From positions 16,719 through 80,718 of the forward strand of contig JAKBAV010000006.1 in the NCBI GenBank assembly GCA_021826225.1: DNA of 64,000 nucleotides, in the 5' to 3' direction. Positions 6,562-54,533 of this stretch are shown here, piece after piece. Under the pieces are notes generated by a model that saw only the letters and a program-made list of their open reading frames with translations, searched no databases and was not told the DNA's origin. Positions within the stretch are counted from its first letter, which is position 1. Each line of letters begins with the position of its first letter. The position numbers were made by a program, and so were the translations under genes. Source of the stretch: Pseudomonadota bacterium (GTDB taxonomy: Bacteria > Pseudomonadota > Alphaproteobacteria > Acetobacterales > Acetobacteraceae).

Positions 6562-7844
6562 TACGCTGCACCTCCTTGCGCGAGCGCGGCGAAACACTCG
6601 CCACGGGCCTCGAAATTCGCGAACTGGTCGAAGCTCGCGGCGGCCGGCGAGAACAGCACCACGCCGCATGCGGAAGCGGCGGCGAAAGCGGCGGGCACGG
6701 CGCGCTCAAGCGTGCCTGCAACTTCATTGGCAACCCCGGCCGCGCTCAGGGTCCGCGCGAAAGCCGCTCCGTCCTGGCCGATCAGAAACGCTTTTTCAAT
6801 ACGCGGAAAAAACGGCGCCAGCTCCTCGATTCCACCTGTCTTGGCAACACCACCGGCAATCCACACGAAACGTTCATAGCAGGCCATGGCACGGCTGGCG
6901 GCATCGGCATTGGTCGCCTTGCTGTCATTGATGAAGCGCACGCCATCGCGCACGGCCACTTCCTGCTGGCGGTGCGCCAGCCCGGGGAAGCTGCGTATCC
7001 CCTCCGCGATCACCGCCTCATCCACCCCCAGCGCGCGGGCCATGGCGGCAGCGGCGGCGGCGTTCTGCGCGTTGTGCTCGCCCGGCAGCGCCGGCGCGCC
7101 GGTGGCGGCACCCAGGCCGGAAATCTCCACCACCGGCACATTACGGGTCCGCAGCCAGTCCGCCATGAAGCGCGACCCGGCATCGTCAATGCCGATCACC
7201 GCCATGCAGCCCTCGTCCTGGCGCGCGAATATCTCCCGCTTGACCGCGGCATAGCCGGCCATGTCCCCGTGGCGCTCAAGATGGTCCGGCGAGAGATTAA
7301 GCATAACCGCGACATCGAACCGCAATGTCGCGAGTCTCTCCAACATGTAGCTCGACATTTCGAGCACATACACGCCGTCATCCGGCAGAATCGGCAAAGC
7401 CAGGGCAGCCGGGCCGAGATTGCCCCCCGCCGCATTGGGAATACCGGCCAAAGTGAGGATATGCGCGAGGAGCGCGGTGGTGGTGGATTTTCCGTTCGTA
7501 CCCGTAATCCCGGCGAAACGCGCCCTGGAGCCGGCCGCGCGCGCAATCTGGTAGAGCAGTTCCGCATCGGTGAGAATCGGCACGCCATGCGCGACCGCCC
7601 AGGCCGCCTCGGGATGCGGCTGCGGCCGTTCATGCGGAATGCCGGGCGAGAGCACCACAGCCTCCAGTCGCCCTGCGATGTCCGAGGGCCGCGCCACGGT
7701 GAAACCGGACGCAGCCGCGCGGGAGGCGGGAGAATCGTCCCAGACGAAGACTTCGGCGCCCAACTCCCGCAGCCGCATGGCCGCCGGCAACCCGGCCTTG
7801 CCGAGCCCCACCACCGCATAGCGCTTGCCGGTACAGATGCTCAT
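6561..7844 (-). CDS. murD: UDP-N-acetylmuramoylalanine--D-glutamate ligase
   Basis: [29 protein letters not shown]..., [39 protein letters not shown]; listed ORF extends to 8162 but the upstream part is out-of-frame mraY. Confidence 0.94.
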
Positions 7845-8929
7845 CGGATTTTGAGGGTAGCCAGACCCACCAGCCCCAGAATCATGGAGATGATCCAGAA
7901 GCGGATCACGATGGTCGGCTCCGCCCAGCCTTTTTTCTCGAAATGATGGTGCAACGGCGCCATGAGAAACACACGCCGGCCGGTGCGCTTGTACCAGAAC
8001 ACCTGCACGATGACCGAGACCGTCTCGACCACGAACAGCCCGCCGACAATGGCCAGCACGATCTCGCTCTTGGTCGCCACCGCCACGGCCCCCAGCGCAC
8101 CGCCCAGCGAGAGCGAGCCGGTATCGCCCATGAACACGGCGGCGGGTGGCGCGTTGAACCACAGGAAACCGAGCCCGGCGCCGATGAGAGCCGAGAGAAA
8201 CACCGCCAGCTCGCCCACGCCGGGTACGAAATGCAGTTCAAGATACCCCGCGAAAATCTTGTTCCCCACGAGATAGGCGATGAGCGAGAAGACGGCCGCG
8301 GCGATCATCGTCGGCACGGTGGCCAGGCCATCCAGCCCGTCGGTGAAATTCACCGCATTGGCGGCGCCCATCATCACGAATAATCCGACGAAGGGGAATA
8401 ATATGCCGAACGGGATCATCAGGCTCTTGAACAGCGGCAATGCCAGATCATCGGCGAAACCGGCCGGCATCAGCGAGATCATCCACACCGCAGCGATCAG
8501 CCCGATCACGCTTTCACTCAGCAGCCGCACTCGGCCGGACACGCCCTTGGTGTTGCGCCGCGTCAGCTTCAGGAAATCATCGGCGAAGCCGACCGCGCCA
8601 TAGCCAAAGGTGACGAACAAAGTCGCCCAGACGAAGCCGTTGCCGAGATCGCCCCAGAGCAGCACCGAAAGCCCCAGCGCCAGCAGGATCAGCACCCCGC
8701 CCATGGTCGGCGTGCCCTTTTTCTCGATCAGATGCCGCTCCGGCCCATCCGAGCGGATCGGCTGGCCATGGCGCTGCATGGCCTTCAGCTTGCGGATTAT
8801 CCGCGGCCCCAGCCAGAAGCTGATGATGAGCGCTGTGAGGCACGCCCCGCCGGCCCGGAAGGTGATGTACCGGAACAGGTTGAAGGCATGGACACTCCCA
8901 GCCAGCGGCAAAAGAAACCAGTAGAACAT
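7841..8929 (-). CDS. mraY: Phospho-N-acetylmuramoyl-pentapeptide-transferase
   Basis: [67 protein letters not shown]. Confidence 0.97.
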
Positions 8930-45506: not shown

Positions 45507-46178
45507 CTACTCCCGGCGCAACATTGTCGCGTTGAAAAACTCAGCGATCCTGCCTGCCTTGAAAGCAGACCGGAGCGCAGCCTCGTCGTAATCCTCCCGC
45601 ACCCAGTCAAGAAATGGTTTTTTACCCTCGGCGGCAAGCTGGTACAGCCGGAAAAACGCGTCCAGAATCCCCGTGCTGGATTGCCGGATATGTCCGAAGC
45701 GGAGTGAAAGCTGCGCCAGTGCGTCCTCGGCCGTGCCGCCTTCGAGGAGTAGAAAAAGCCCGGCGGCGAGCCCTGCCCGGTCGGCGCCGGATTTGCAGTG
45801 GATCAGCGCCGGGGGCTGCATCCCGGCGTAAATTCCCGCCAGGCGCAAAATGCGGTCCTTATGCGGGGCGCCGCGCGATTCGAAGGCCATGTCGTAAAAA
45901 TCGAGCCCCAGCGCGCGCGCGGTGTAGCGCGAGAGCGCGGCTGAACCGTATTTCGTCTCGCCACGCAGGTTTATGAGCGTTTTGAGGCCGTATTCGCGGG
46001 CCAGGGTGCGCAGCTTTGCCGGGGTGGGCTGGTTGGCGCGGTACAGCACGCCCGGCTTCACCACGGCAAAATTGCTCCAGAACACGCGGAAGAACGCATG
46101 GTCGGCGAAGAAGCCGTGCAGCCAGGCGCGGCGGCGGCCGGATTTGGTTGAAAGATCGCCCTGATAGAAGCTGCTCAT
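45507..46178 (-). CDS. Protein tyrosine/dual-specificity phosphatase-like
   Basis: VKPGVLYRANQPTPAKLRTLAREYGLKTLINLRGE and HCKSGADRAG (CX5R P-loop). Confidence 0.85.
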   Translation of the reverse strand: MSSFYQGDLSTKSGRRRAWLHGFFADHAFFRVFWSNFAVVKPGVLYRANQPTPAKLRTLAREYGLKTLINLRGETKYGSAALSRYTARALGLDFYDMAFESRGAPHKDRILRLAGIYAGMQPPALIHCKSGADRAGLAAGLFLLLEGGTAEDALAQLSLRFGHIRQSSTGILDAFFRLYQLAAEGKKPFLDWVREDYDEAALRSAFKAGRIAEFFNATMLRRE

Positions 46179-46236
46179 GGCACCGGCTCGTAGCGCATTT
46201 TTGCTCCCGCCCAAACTGTGCTTGAAGGACGCCGCC

Positions 46237-47976
46237 ATGACCCAGCATATTTCGAGCGCCACCCTGATCCTGCGCCTGTGGCGCGAACATATCCGGCATT
46301 TTCGCGGACGGCTCGCGCTCATCGTCGTGGCCACGCTGCTGATGTCGGTCTCCACGGCACTTTACCCGGCACTCATTGACTGGGCCTTCACCCTGTTCGT
46401 CCGCAAGGATCCGCGCATCCTCTACCAGGTGCCGCTGCTGGCGCTGGTGCTGGCCACCACGCGCGGGCTCTCAATGTATTTCCAGGCTGTGCTGACGCAG
46501 GACATGGTGCTGCTGGTCATCCGCCGTCTCCAGAATGCGATGTTCGAGCACCTCACCAACGCCGCGCTGGCGCGGGTCGAGCGCGAGGCGCCGGCCCAGC
46601 TCGCGGCGCGTTTCACGACCGATGCCACGGTAATCCGCGAGGCCATGACCCGGGCGGTGACCGCCATCGGCAATGCCACCACCGTGATCGGGCTGGTCGT
46701 CACCATGATCGTGATCGACTGGGAGCTGAGCCTGATCGTGGCGGTGGTGTTCCCACTGGCCGGGCTGCCCGTGGAGCGTATCGGCAAGCGCATCCGGCGC
46801 GCCTCCAGCGGCATGCAGGAGCGCATGGGCGAGGCCGCCGCCGTGCTGAACGAGAGTTTCGCCCAGGCCCGCACCGTGCGCGCCTACGGGCTGGAAGCCC
46901 ATGAGCAGGCCCGCGCAGGCACGACCTTCGACCAGCTCTACAACGCGTTGATCCGCATGACGCGCATCCGCGCCCGGCTGGACCCGATGCTGGAGGTGCT
47001 GGCAGGAGTCGCCGTAGCGGCGGTAATCGGCTTCGATGGCTGGCGCCATGCCGCGGGCGGCGGCGGCGTCGGTAATTTCATGGGGTTTCTCACCGCCCTG
47101 CTGATGGCGGCACAGCCCTTACGCTCGCTCGGCACCATGAATGCCGCGATCCAGGAAGGGCTTGGCGGGCTGGTACGGGTATTTTCCGTAATCGACGAAC
47201 CCGCCGCCATCGCCGATGCGCCGGGCGCGGTGGCGCTGCCGCCAGGGGCGGGCGAGCTGGTATTCGAGGATGTCGTATTCAGCTACCCCGATGGCCGGCC
47301 GGGGCTGCGGGGCTTGAGCTTCACCGCGGCGCCGGGGCGCATGCTGGCGCTGGTCGGCTCCTCGGGTGCCGGAAAATCCACCGCGCTGGCGTTGATCCCG
47401 CGCCTGTACACCCCGGCCAGCGGGCGCGTGCTTCTGGATGGCGCGGATATCGCCGCGGTCACTTTAACCAGCCTGCGCAACGCCATCGCCTATGTCGGCC
47501 AGGAGGCGCTGCTGTTCGATGATACGATCGGCGCCAATATTCTGCGCGGCCGGCCGGAAGCCACCGAGGCCGAGATGCGGGCGGCGGCGGTGGCGGCGGC
47601 GTGCGGGTTCATCGAGGAGATGCCGGAGGGTTTCAACACCCGTGTGGGTGTGAACGGCCAGCGGCTTTCAGGCGGGCAGCGCCAGCGCGTGGCCATTGCC
47701 CGGGCGATTTTGCGTAACCCGCGGATACTGCTCCTCGACGAAGCCACCAGCGCCCTGGATACCGAGAGCGAGGCGCTGGTGCAGGCGGCACTTTCGCATC
47801 TGCGTCAGGGGCGCACCACCATCGTCGTGGCGCACCGGCTTTCCACCGTGCGCGATGCCGATCTGATCGTGGTGATGGCCGATGGCGTGGCGGTGGAACA
47901 GGGCAGCCACGCGGCGCTGCTGGCCGAGGATGGCGCCTTCGCCCGGCTGGTGAAGGCGCAGGCGCTGGCGGCCTGA
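46237..47976 (+). CDS. ABC transporter, fused permease/ATPase (MsbA-like)
   Basis: N-term 6-TM exporter domain; LVGSSGAGKSTALALIPRLY, LSGGQRQRVAIARAILRNPRILLLDEATSALD. Confidence 0.95.
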   Translation: MTQHISSATLILRLWREHIRHFRGRLALIVVATLLMSVSTALYPALIDWAFTLFVRKDPRILYQVPLLALVLATTRGLSMYFQAVLTQDMVLLVIRRLQNAMFEHLTNAALARVEREAPAQLAARFTTDATVIREAMTRAVTAIGNATTVIGLVVTMIVIDWELSLIVAVVFPLAGLPVERIGKRIRRASSGMQERMGEAAAVLNESFAQARTVRAYGLEAHEQARAGTTFDQLYNALIRMTRIRARLDPMLEVLAGVAVAAVIGFDGWRHAAGGGGVGNFMGFLTALLMAAQPLRSLGTMNAAIQEGLGGLVRVFSVIDEPAAIADAPGAVALPPGAGELVFEDVVFSYPDGRPGLRGLSFTAAPGRMLALVGSSGAGKSTALALIPRLYTPASGRVLLDGADIAAVTLTSLRNAIAYVGQEALLFDDTIGANILRGRPEATEAEMRAAAVAAACGFIEEMPEGFNTRVGVNGQRLSGGQRQRVAIARAILRNPRILLLDEATSALDTESEALVQAALSHLRQGRTTIVVAHRLSTVRDADLIVVMADGVAVEQGSHAALLAEDGAFARLVKAQALAA

Positions 47977-50427: not shown

Positions 50428-51906
50428 ATGAGTGAAATCGGCCTGAATACCCCTGAATTTTCCGTCTCCGAACTCGCGGGCGCGGTGAAGCGCACGCTGG
50501 AAGGCGCCTTCGGCCGGGTGCGGGTGCGCGGCGAGATTACCGAGTTCAAGGCCTATGGCTCCGGTCACCAGTATTTCGCGCTGAAGGATGAAAGCGCCAA
50601 AATCCGCGCGATCATCTGGAAAGGGCAGGTCGCGCGCGTCGGGCTGAAGGCGGAAAACGGCGTGGAGGTAATCGCCACCGGCAAGCTCACCTCCTATCCG
50701 GAACGCTCGGAATACCAGCTTATCGTGGAAAAACTGGAATATGCCGGCGCCGGCGCGCTGCTGGCGCGTATCGAGGCGCTGCGGGTGCGGCTGCAGGCCG
50801 AGGGGCTGTTCGAGCGGCGGCGGGCCCTGCCGGTGCTGCCGCGCGTAATCGGGGTGGTGACATCGGCGCAGGGCGCGGTGCTCCAGGATATCAAAACCAC
50901 CATTGCACGGCGCTTTCCCCGCCTCATTCTGCTCTGGCCCGTCGCGGTGCAAGGCGAGGGCGCGGCGGAGAAGATCGCGGCGGCCATTACCGGCTTCAAC
51001 AACCTGCCGCCCGGCATGGCGCAGCCGGATGTGCTCATCGTGGCGCGCGGCGGCGGCAGCCTTGAAGACCTCATGGCGTTCAATGACGAAGCCGTGGTGC
51101 GGGCGGCGGCGGGCAGCCGCATTCCGCTGATTTCCGCCGTGGGGCATGAGACCGATACCACGCTGATCGACTTCGCCGCGGACCGCCGCGCCCCCACACC
51201 CACCGCCGCCGCCGAAATGGCCGTGCCGGCGCGGGCGGAATTGCTGGCCGACCTGGCGCAACGCGCGGCACGGCTGGATGGCGCCGCCGCGCGCCTGCTC
51301 GGCCTCGCCCATGCCGGGCTGGACAGGGCTGCGGCGCGATTGCCCGACCTGCCCGCCATGCTGGGCGCCGCCCGCCAACGCCTGGATGACAGGGCCGAGC
51401 GCCTGATCCTCGCATTGCCCAACTTCATGGCGGCCAAACGCGGCCGGGTGGAACGGTTGGCGCTACGCCACCCGCGCGAATTCCTGCTCCGCCTGCGCGG
51501 CGGAATCGAACTGCTGCAACGGCGCCTGCGCGATGGTCTGCCCAACCTGCTGCGCGCCGGGACCAAGCGGCTGGACGCGGCCGGCTACCGGCTGACCCAT
51601 CCCGGTGGCGAGATAGCGCTGCGACGAGGGCGGACCGACATGCTGGGGCAACGCCTGGCCAGCCCCCTGCCCGGCCGCCTGCGCGAGGCTAGGCTACGGC
51701 TGGATACCGTGGCGGCGCGGCTGGAGAGCGCGAGCTACGAGCGCGTGCTGGCGCGCGGCTTCACGCTGGTGACCACGCCCAAGGGCACGGCCGTGACCGC
51801 GGCTGCGAAAGTGGCGCCCGGCACGCCGCTGACCCTGCATTTCGCCGATGGCATCGTCGCCGTGCGGGCCGAGAAACCCACGGCACAGCTCGATTTCGGG
51901 CTTTAA
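50428..51906 (+). CDS. xseA: Exodeoxyribonuclease VII large subunit
   Basis: [83 protein letters not shown]. Confidence 0.96.
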
Positions 51907-51986: not shown

Positions 51987-53087
51987 TCAATTAAATTCCT
52001 CGGCCATGGCCACTATTTCCCTGGACGGCGTGCCGTAACTCACGAGTCTAACATCGAGATCGTAGGCGGTCACCAATTTTAGAGCCCGCCGCATGGCAGC
52101 GTGTATCCAATTACAATGATTGCCGAATGCGCCGCCGCCGAGAAGCGTCAGAAAAACGACTTTTGATCCGCCCCGTTGTGCGTTCAAAACAGCGGCCCAC
52201 ATGGTGGCCTCATAAGCGGCCTCCAAGACGAGCACCGCGAATGGCGTCCAATGAGCAGGGGGAATGCGGCTATAGGCAACCGGCAACGCCGAGCAGAATG
52301 CCTGAGAGACTCGCGGCCGATCCGGCCCTGCCGCTTCGGTGACTTCGACATCGTGATGTATTCCGATGCGCAGTTTTCCTCGCAAAACATCAAGTTGGTC
52401 CTTTGCAAGTGTTCCAAGGTGTTGAGCGATGGCATCGAGGCCCGTTCTGGTACCCAAGGCATAGCCATTCTGCATCGTCCATAGCTCGCCGACGGACAGT
52501 TTTGTCGCACGGCTCAAAGCCTCCCCCAGATCTGTGAGCCCATCGAGTTGCTCCCTCGCGGTTTGGCCCTCGCTGCCTCCCACTGGAGCAAAGTAATTGC
52601 GATAGATGGTCGCCGCGCCAGCGGCGATTGCACATGCCGGCCCCTGAGTTGGGTCGCTTTGATACCGGGTCACGCCATGTTCCGGCGTTATGTCTGGCGA
52701 CACCATCTCCAATAGATTGAACTGTGAGGCTACCTGGAAAAGCGCCCCAGCATTTTCCGCAGACCTGTGCATATGCCGCACATCGCCGGTCACCACACTC
52801 GTCTGCATCCTGCTGGGCGGATTGACCGCGGATTTTACCCTTGCGCGGAGAGCCTGAAGTGAGACCAATTCTAGCTCCCCAACCCCATAGCTAGCGCCAT
52901 TGATCCGGGAGACCAGTCTTACGTCCTCGACAGCGAGACGCGCGCGTGTCTCGTCGTAGCCAGCTTCCCGAAATCCCGTGAGCTTTTCGAACCAATCCAT
53001 GATTTCCCCCTCAACCCGTACGGGGTCAACTTCATACGACACCTCCGGTTGCTGTACCGGTATCACATTAGATTGCGCGCGTGCCAT
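51987..53087 (-). CDS. Uncharacterised protein with macrodomain/PARG-like C-terminal motif
   Basis: Single ORF, 366 aa; NAGALFQVASQFNLLEMVSPDITPEHGVTRYQSDPTQGPACAIAAGAATIYRNYF and VVFLTLLGGGAFGNHCNWIHAAMRRAL. Confidence 0.8.
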   Translation of the reverse strand: MARAQSNVIPVQQPEVSYEVDPVRVEGEIMDWFEKLTGFREAGYDETRARLAVEDVRLVSRINGASYGVGELELVSLQALRARVKSAVNPPSRMQTSVVTGDVRHMHRSAENAGALFQVASQFNLLEMVSPDITPEHGVTRYQSDPTQGPACAIAAGAATIYRNYFAPVGGSEGQTAREQLDGLTDLGEALSRATKLSVGELWTMQNGYALGTRTGLDAIAQHLGTLAKDQLDVLRGKLRIGIHHDVEVTEAAGPDRPRVSQAFCSALPVAYSRIPPAHWTPFAVLVLEAAYEATMWAAVLNAQRGGSKVVFLTLLGGGAFGNHCNWIHAAMRRALKLVTAYDLDVRLVSYGTPSREIVAMAEEFN

Positions 53088-53234: not shown

Positions 53235-54533
53235 TTGAATTTGCGTGCACTCGCCGCGCCCCGTGAGGGCACCGACCACTTCGCATGGGTCGTCACCCTG
53301 GTGTGCATATTGGGGCTCATCATCGCCCTGTCCGGCTCATCGCGCGGCGCGGACCTGTTTCTGGCGTGCTGGGGCCTGCTCATTTTGCCGCGCGCGCCTT
53401 TATGCCTGAAACTGGTATTCCGCTCGCCCGGCCTGTGGCTGATACCGGCCTTCGCGCTGCTTTCGGTGCTTTGGTCGCAGGACCGCAGCGAGACGCTGCG
53501 CGCCGGCATCGAGCTGTCCCTGACCATCGGCATCGCTTTTCTGACAGCCGGCTTCCTGCGGCCGCGCGAATTCGTCGTCACCATGATGCTCGGCCTGCTA
53601 TTCGCCGCGGTACTGTCGCTGCTGTTTGGCCGGTACGGTGTGGACGGGTTGAGCGGCCAGACCGTGTTCATGGGGATTTTCGCCAGTAAGAACACCATGG
53701 CGATGGTGATGTCGTTGTTTCTGCTGTTCTCGCTCGCGGTTCTGGTTGACCGGCATCAGCCCGCATTATTCCGCCTGATCGCGGTCATCGCCTTCCCGCT
53801 CAGTATTCCGCTGCTGCTGCGCGCGCATTCGGTCGGGGCGTTCATCACCACCGGGGCTTCCCTGCTGGCATTTCTGCTGATCGTGGTCTTTGTTCGCCTC
53901 TCCTCGCGCGAGCGCATGCTCGTGCTCACGGTGGGCGGGGCTCTGGCCGTGCCCATCGCCATCGGCACTGCGTATCTGGCGTTGAGCGGCACGCTCGGCG
54001 ATGCGGTGTACTGGTTCATCACCCATGTGCTGGGCAAGGACCCGACCATGACCGGGCGCACGGTGCTCTGGCAGATCGCCCTGAACCAGATCGCCCAGCA
54101 CCCGCTTCTGGGCTCAGGCTACGATGCGTTCTGGATTCAGGGCAATCTGCTGCCGGAAGGAATATGGCGGGAGTTTCAGATCGATTCGCGCTCGGGCTTC
54201 AATTTCCAGAACACCCTGCTGGAGGTCGCGGTCGAGCTTGGTTGGATCGGGGCAGGCCTGCTGGCCATGATGCTGTTCGCGGCGACCGTGCGCGTGGCCC
54301 GGCTCGCTTTGGCCGACCAGAACATGGCGCACGCGGCTCTGCTCGCCTCGCTTTTCTGCCTGCTGACGCGGATGATCGCCGAGGTGGATACGCCCTACCC
54401 GTTTGCCCTCGGCACGTTTTTATTGTTCGCCGCCGCCGCCTACGGCGCCGACCAGGTGGCGGCGGTGCGCGCGCCGCAACCTCAGGGCACGTATGAAACC
54501 GCCTCGCCGAGCATATCAGCGGAGAGAGCCTGA
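53235..54533 (+). CDS. O-antigen ligase/polymerase family (Wzy_C-type) membrane protein
   Basis: Polytopic; GIFASKNTMAMVMSLFLLFSL, LLGSGYDAFW, FNFQNTLLEVAVELGWIGAGLL. Confidence 0.87.
   Translation: MNLRALAAPREGTDHFAWVVTLVCILGLIIALSGSSRGADLFLACWGLLILPRAPLCLKLVFRSPGLWLIPAFALLSVLWSQDRSETLRAGIELSLTIGIAFLTAGFLRPREFVVTMMLGLLFAAVLSLLFGRYGVDGLSGQTVFMGIFASKNTMAMVMSLFLLFSLAVLVDRHQPALFRLIAVIAFPLSIPLLLRAHSVGAFITTGASLLAFLLIVVFVRLSSRERMLVLTVGGALAVPIAIGTAYLALSGTLGDAVYWFITHVLGKDPTMTGRTVLWQIALNQIAQHPLLGSGYDAFWIQGNLLPEGIWREFQIDSRSGFNFQNTLLEVAVELGWIGAGLLAMMLFAATVRVARLALADQNMAHAALLASLFCLLTRMIAEVDTPYPFALGTFLLFAAAAYGADQVAAVRAPQPQGTYETASPSISAERA

Follow-up and report, generated by a model that had tools for sequence, protein, structure and literature searches.

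The gene between xseA and an O-antigen-ligase-like gene

Within the window (the 64,000-nucleotide stretch of DNA that we analyzed), an intact open reading frame (ORF) of 366 codons lies on the − strand between two genes of the + strand, xseA and an O-antigen-ligase-like ORF. This is the arrangement that the initial annotation had described, and the two peptides that it quoted match the translation exactly (at residues 101 and 310). The features are:

50428-51906, + strand: xseA, neighbor of the 366-aa ORF
51987-53087, − strand: the intact 366-codon ORF
51987-53000, − strand: probable real coding region of the ORF, for a 337-aa protein of the PARG/macro-fold family that starts with MDWFEKLTGF (most of it with a pLDDT above 90)
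53001-53087, − strand: 29-codon upstream extension of the ORF, missing in relatives and probably untranslated
53235-54533, + strand: O-antigen-ligase-like ORF, the other neighbor

Translation probably starts at codon 30, an ATG whose first base is at 53000 on the − strand, because almost all of the relatives start at or close to MDWFE or MWFE in the family alignment, because a Shine-Dalgarno-like GAGGGGGA lies 5' of this ATG, and because residues 1 to 27 of the 366-aa ORF have a pLDDT below 50 in the AlphaFold2 model. The ratio dN/dS is 0.10 to 0.16 between the window gene and its five closest relatives, so the gene encodes a real protein under purifying selection; with homologs at 28 loci as well (see below), it is more than a chance ORF.

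The gene has a G+C content of 57.4% and a GC3 of 0.60, compared with a GC3 of 0.79 to 0.85 in five other genes of the window. The three lines of sequence that the initial annotation had counted as low in G+C recompute to 61.7, 50.0, and 55.0%, and its line from xseA to 76.7%. The suggestion of horizontal acquisition is also borne out by the distribution of the gene within the genus: it is present in 2 of 37 congeners, both times at other sites, with low GC3. At one of these sites, it is flanked by a transporter and an HPr-kinase-like gene; at the other, it is beside pnp and trpF (we named these genes by reading their translations). When genomes were compared with xseA as the anchor, the congeners aligned to the end of xseA and no further. 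The O-antigen-ligase-like gene is itself accessory: just 1 of the 37 congeners has a homolog (54% identity), so the DNA that follows xseA seems to be a variable site. Because the congeners match only to the end of xseA and the O-antigen ligase is rare in the genus, the exact ends of the insertion cannot be set.

Predicted fold and conserved motifs

Searches with the sequence of the window protein against Pfam, NCBIfam, PADLOC, PHROGs, and PDB gave no useful match. No Pfam model, including PF10021 and PF05028, matched the protein at E values up to 10; the Macro domain profile (PF01661) did not match it either, and the PF10021 profile had no match in the genome that the window comes from. A weak match to Cas DxTHG (E = 1.1) is not above chance, and we rejected it as a family assignment. 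The family is unnamed and is not DUF2263/PF10021.

The initial annotation had proposed a macro/PARG-like fold, and structural comparisons agree. We modeled the window protein with AlphaFold2 from the family alignment (pLDDT 85.9, pTM 0.86) and compared the model to PDB with Foldseek: bacterial PARG (from T. curvata and D. radiodurans) took ranks 1 to 13, with a best E value of 1.1e-6 and a probability of 1.00, followed by YmdB and other macrodomains. When a Bacteroidota member was placed first, the resulting second model (pLDDT 86.9) likewise had PARG chains at the top and macrodomains next. The TM-scores to PARG from Foldseek are modest (0.35 to 0.46 by query), and in a profile-profile comparison with four PARGs, only GGGAFGN was aligned, with WGCGVFGN of PARG and at low probability. 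As modeled, the family has a macro core fold like that of PARG.

Active PARGs are defined by the motif GGGx6-8QEE, and their diphosphate loop follows the rule G[A,V][F,Y] (PMC7050489). The loop likeness that had been noticed in the window protein fits this rule: GGG[AV]FGN is present in all 23 aligned members of the family and in the plasmid homologs that we checked. Regular expressions for GGGx6-8QEE and for QEE matched none of the 23 aligned members. After the corresponding strand, in place of GGGx6-8QEE, members have FQ[AV]ASQFN[LM]LEM...D.TQGPACA, with QGP where QEE would be expected. In the window gene, the corresponding features are:

52704-52739, − strand: FQVASQFNLLEM, in place of the N/D-P-GGG stretch of the PARG catalytic loop; N124 and E127 are invariant (regular expression and invariant columns, with the equivalence suggested by the order of strand, loop, and helix)
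52629-52649, − strand: TQGPACA, at the start of the next helix (residues 148-155), where PARG has QEE; T147, Q148, G149, P150, and C152 are invariant, and D145 lies just before (alignment and helix of the model)
52119-52139, − strand: GGGAFGN, putative diphosphate-binding loop, counterpart of WGCGVFGN in T. curvata PARG (from the alignment, and exactly the stretch that the profile-profile comparison picks)

The window copy keeps every residue that is invariant in the family. The invariant N124 is at the place expected for the Asn or Asp of PARG that contacts the 3''-OH, before the catalytic loop, and may correspond to it. Since GGG[AV]FGN is kept and QEE is absent, the family protein likely binds ADP-ribose, and the known chemistry of PARG would be unavailable to it. 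Conservation and position suggest E127, D145, and C152, with N124, as candidate catalytic residues. MacroD-type enzymes also function without the glutamate pair (PMC7050489). Given that GGGx6-8QEE is missing, a reader function or a different chemistry is conceivable. With the catalytic glutamates of PARG absent, the window protein, which the initial annotation described as an enzyme, is a putative enzyme.

Distribution and gene neighborhoods of the family

In a scan with one genome per species, we found homologs at 28 loci (43 to 83% identity) in Pseudomonadota, Bacteroidota, Planctomycetota, Myxococcota, and other groups. In a wider sample of Pseudomonadota, 7 of 399 genomes (about 2%) contain the gene. 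Homologs are also encoded by 339 plasmids in PLSDB, mostly from Klebsiella (260) or Escherichia (58), and 288 of these plasmids are conjugative; in complete genomes of E. coli, we saw the homolog on plasmids only. On IncF plasmids of E. coli and Salmonella (L079, L080, and L081), it lies between traX and repA, which is a recurrent place on IncF plasmids. Two Klebsiella plasmids with resistance genes, of types IncR and IncF (L074 and L083), encode WP_019725651.1, a 331-aa "hypothetical protein" of the family, after a gene for SRAP (SOS-associated peptidase). In the non-proteobacterial half of the phylogenetic tree, members from different phyla and from plasmids are interspersed, the pattern that a mobile gene should give (one row of the tree, L087, is in the wrong reading frame, and its placement carries no meaning). 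Two nearly identical genes, L015 and L016, are from bins that are labeled Saprospiraceae and Campylobacterales, which reflects either a recent transfer or a binning error.

For viruses, we searched BFVD with Foldseek. The best matches, from Yasminevirus and Bodo saltans virus, are proteins without annotation, with E values of 6e-30 to 2.5e-24 and 28 to 33% identity over the full length. Giant viruses thus encode true homologs. None of the phage records in the collection that we searched contain a homolog.

At many loci, the family gene has a partner. A gene for a rhodanese-type phosphatase (PTP-SAK PF22784 / CDKN3) lies just upstream on the same strand at L003, L004/L031, L005, L010/L096, L012, L013, and L034/L094. 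The gap between the two genes is 10 to 52 nucleotides at L003, L005, L010, L012, and L013, and they overlap by a few bases at L031. At L002, L008, and L009, the phosphatase is partial or broken, and in Rhodopirellula (L022), the family protein carries at its N terminus a fused phosphatase that is divergent but belongs to the same superfamily. When plasmids were searched with the operonic phosphatase, the best matches included copies, 46 to 65% identical, that are fused to ADP-ribosylglycohydrolase (ARG) in Leisingera and Cereibacter; in Roseomonas, a phosphatase in the same range of identity adjoins ARG without fusion. Pfam identifies PTP-SAK and ADP_ribosyl_GH together in one chain. That ARG and the PARG-like family have this phosphatase in common is our strongest functional clue.

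Many members have no phosphatase beside them, including the window copy and its closest relative (L001). The gene had been called solitary, which holds for the window copy but not for the family, as relatives have partner genes. The window copy may act alone, without a phosphatase. The window does contain a DSP/tyrosine-phosphatase-like ORF on the same strand, about 6 kb away (45507-46361, − strand), which we rejected as a partner: it belongs to a different subfamily and is related at the superfamily level only.

Other neighbors are observations at individual loci, without statistical control. An NrtR-Nudix regulator and a calcineurin phosphoesterase are near the family gene at L011; a WYL regulator and a calcineurin phosphoesterase accompany the partial or broken rhodanese-type phosphatase at L009; and L095 has WYL, an HD_4 gene that overlaps by 4 bases, and Zac/DISARM-like genes. 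On a Caballeronia plasmid (L082), SIR2, SLOG cpYpsA, and WYL are found beside methyltransferase and Vsr genes. The SRAP gene of the Klebsiella plasmid L074 has already been mentioned. The family gene follows the BREX genes PglZ, BrxD, and BrxHI at L096, and HsdR is 62 nucleotides upstream of it at L015. In a non-systematic look, we recognized no ADP-ribosyltransferase gene among the neighbors that we read. UvrD and PD-(D/E)XK genes beside L005 resemble those near plasmid ARG systems, but they could be ordinary addAB (the UvrD is 30% identical), and we did not count them. The initial annotation left the role of the protein as unknown; the neighborhoods of the relatives can narrow it.

We also noted that genes at L095 (1563-11961, − strand) form an operon-like row: DrmD-like, Hsp70-like, unknown, ZacB-like, helicase, PARG-like, and HD_4. 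This row is possibly an undescribed defense system. Two alphaproteobacterial copies of the family gene are split or frameshifted: L096 (in G051, at 7182-8893), right after the BREX cluster, and L094 (in G091, at 7438-8400).

A proposed role and its relation to known systems

The likely role of the family is to reverse (or read) ADP-ribosylation in a mobile conflict system. Specifically, we propose, with a probability of roughly 0.6, that it is a PARG/macro-fold ADP-ribosyl hydrolase (or reader) that stands in for ARG in mobile counter-ADP-ribosylation systems. We infer the ligand, the hydrolysis, and the protective role. The protein would bind ADP-ribose or an ADP-ribosylated group in its macro pocket, with the adenosine side in the cleft and the diphosphate on the GGGAFGN loop, and would hydrolyze the bond to the distal ribose with residues other than the two glutamates of PARG (the candidates being the invariant E127, D145, and C152). 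In relatives, the rhodanese-type phosphatase would then act further on the product, either free ADP-ribose or an adduct linked through phosphate. Because hydrolysis would occur beside this phosphatase in relatives, the family protein would take the place of ARG in horizontally mobile systems whose presumed function is to reverse the ADP-ribosylation that phages or rivals carry out. The window copy would have lost its phosphatase and would have to function without a partner.

We also considered whether the macro pocket might bind ADP-ribose or an NAD-derived signal without cleaving it, and so regulate something else. Some macrodomains are readers or sensors, and the catalytic glutamates are absent from this family; but many polar residues around the expected active site are invariant across phyla, and the partner phosphatase is elsewhere coupled to a hydrolase, so a pure reader or sensor seems unlikely. 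We give no more credence to a role in counter-defense, in which the protein would destroy ADP-ribose-type alarm signals, or strip ADP-ribose that was installed by the host, so that a mobile element can establish itself. Such a role would suit the 339 plasmids (288 of them conjugative), the position between traX and repA on IncF plasmids, and the homologs encoded by giant viruses, but the phage records in the collection searched contain no homolog, and chromosomal copies adjoin host-type defense genes.

A housekeeping function seems less likely again. The substrate of the protein might be a metabolite or a by-product of RNA repair (ADP-ribosylated RNA ends or ADP-ribose 1''-phosphate, for example), and the phosphatase would take off the phosphate; macrodomains and bacterial PARGs do use such substrates. 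However, the gene is patchily distributed (2 of 37 congeners and 7 of 399 genomes of Pseudomonadota), at scattered sites, and with defense genes as neighbors. Finally, the window copy could be a decaying orphan of no present use, given that no phosphatase adjoins it and that the two alphaproteobacterial copies at L096 and L094 are split or frameshifted. This is quite improbable, as the window copy is intact, retains all of the invariant residues, and has a dN/dS of 0.10 to 0.16 against its relatives.

Phages and toxins commonly use ADP-ribosylation as a weapon, and to our knowledge, few bacterial countermeasures to it have been described. Because the libraries that we searched have no profile for this family, it is annotated as "hypothetical" on hundreds of plasmids, many of which are from clinical isolates. 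The fold and the partner phosphatase suggest a hypothesis that biochemistry can test directly. It is also of interest how a protein with the PARG fold might function when the glutamates of PARG are absent. More tentatively, the PARG/macro superfamily may include, in this family, a new class of ADP-ribosyl hydrolases, with E127, D145, and C152 in place of QEE and with a dedicated phosphatase. It might then be a mobile, plasmid-borne antidote that is common to bacteria, clinical conjugative plasmids, and giant viruses.

Of the known proteins, microbial PARG (DUF2263, PF10021 PARG_cat_microb; 3sig and 5zda) is the best fold match for two independent models, with the same order of parts and a diphosphate loop of the form G-x-G-[AV]-F-G-N. 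In contrast to microbial PARG, the family lacks GGGx6-8QEE and any match to the profile, is about 10% identical, and has large insertions as well as an additional region at the N terminus. MacroD/YmdB-type and viral macrodomains (PF01661) share the core fold at lower rank, and those of the MacroD type also lack the glutamate pair (PMC7050489), but there is no match in sequence, the family protein is twice the size, and PARG is nearer in fold. The klosneuvirus-type giant-virus proteins (Yasminevirus A0A5K0UBT0; Bodo saltans virus A0A2H4UVR4 and A0A2H4UUF0) have the same fold over the full length, at 28 to 33% identity, but are longer, with added domains (one is annotated as RING-finger).

DarTG and SirTM-macrodomain pairs also include a macro-fold protein that may reverse ADP-ribosylation. 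However, we recognized no ADP-ribosyltransferase beside the members that we read, and SIR2 was found only near the Caballeronia copy. In gene content, the family has a parallel in the ARG-centered counter-ADP-ribosylation systems that Iyer et al. 2022 predicted (PMC9503650 section 3.8). Besides ARG, these have a phosphatase (rhodanese-type, calcineurin, or HD), a regulator (NrtR-Nudix or WYL), and a varying set of nucleases and helicases, but no coupled ADP-ribosyltransferase; the same section compares one ARG-system-associated protein with SRAP. Unlike in those systems, a PARG/macro-fold protein without a PF03747 domain replaces ARG, and the window locus is without any partner (phosphatase, NrtR, or WYL). 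In the relatives, the likeness extends to the same family of phosphatase, the calcineurin and HD alternatives, the NrtR or WYL regulators, and SRAP beside some copies.
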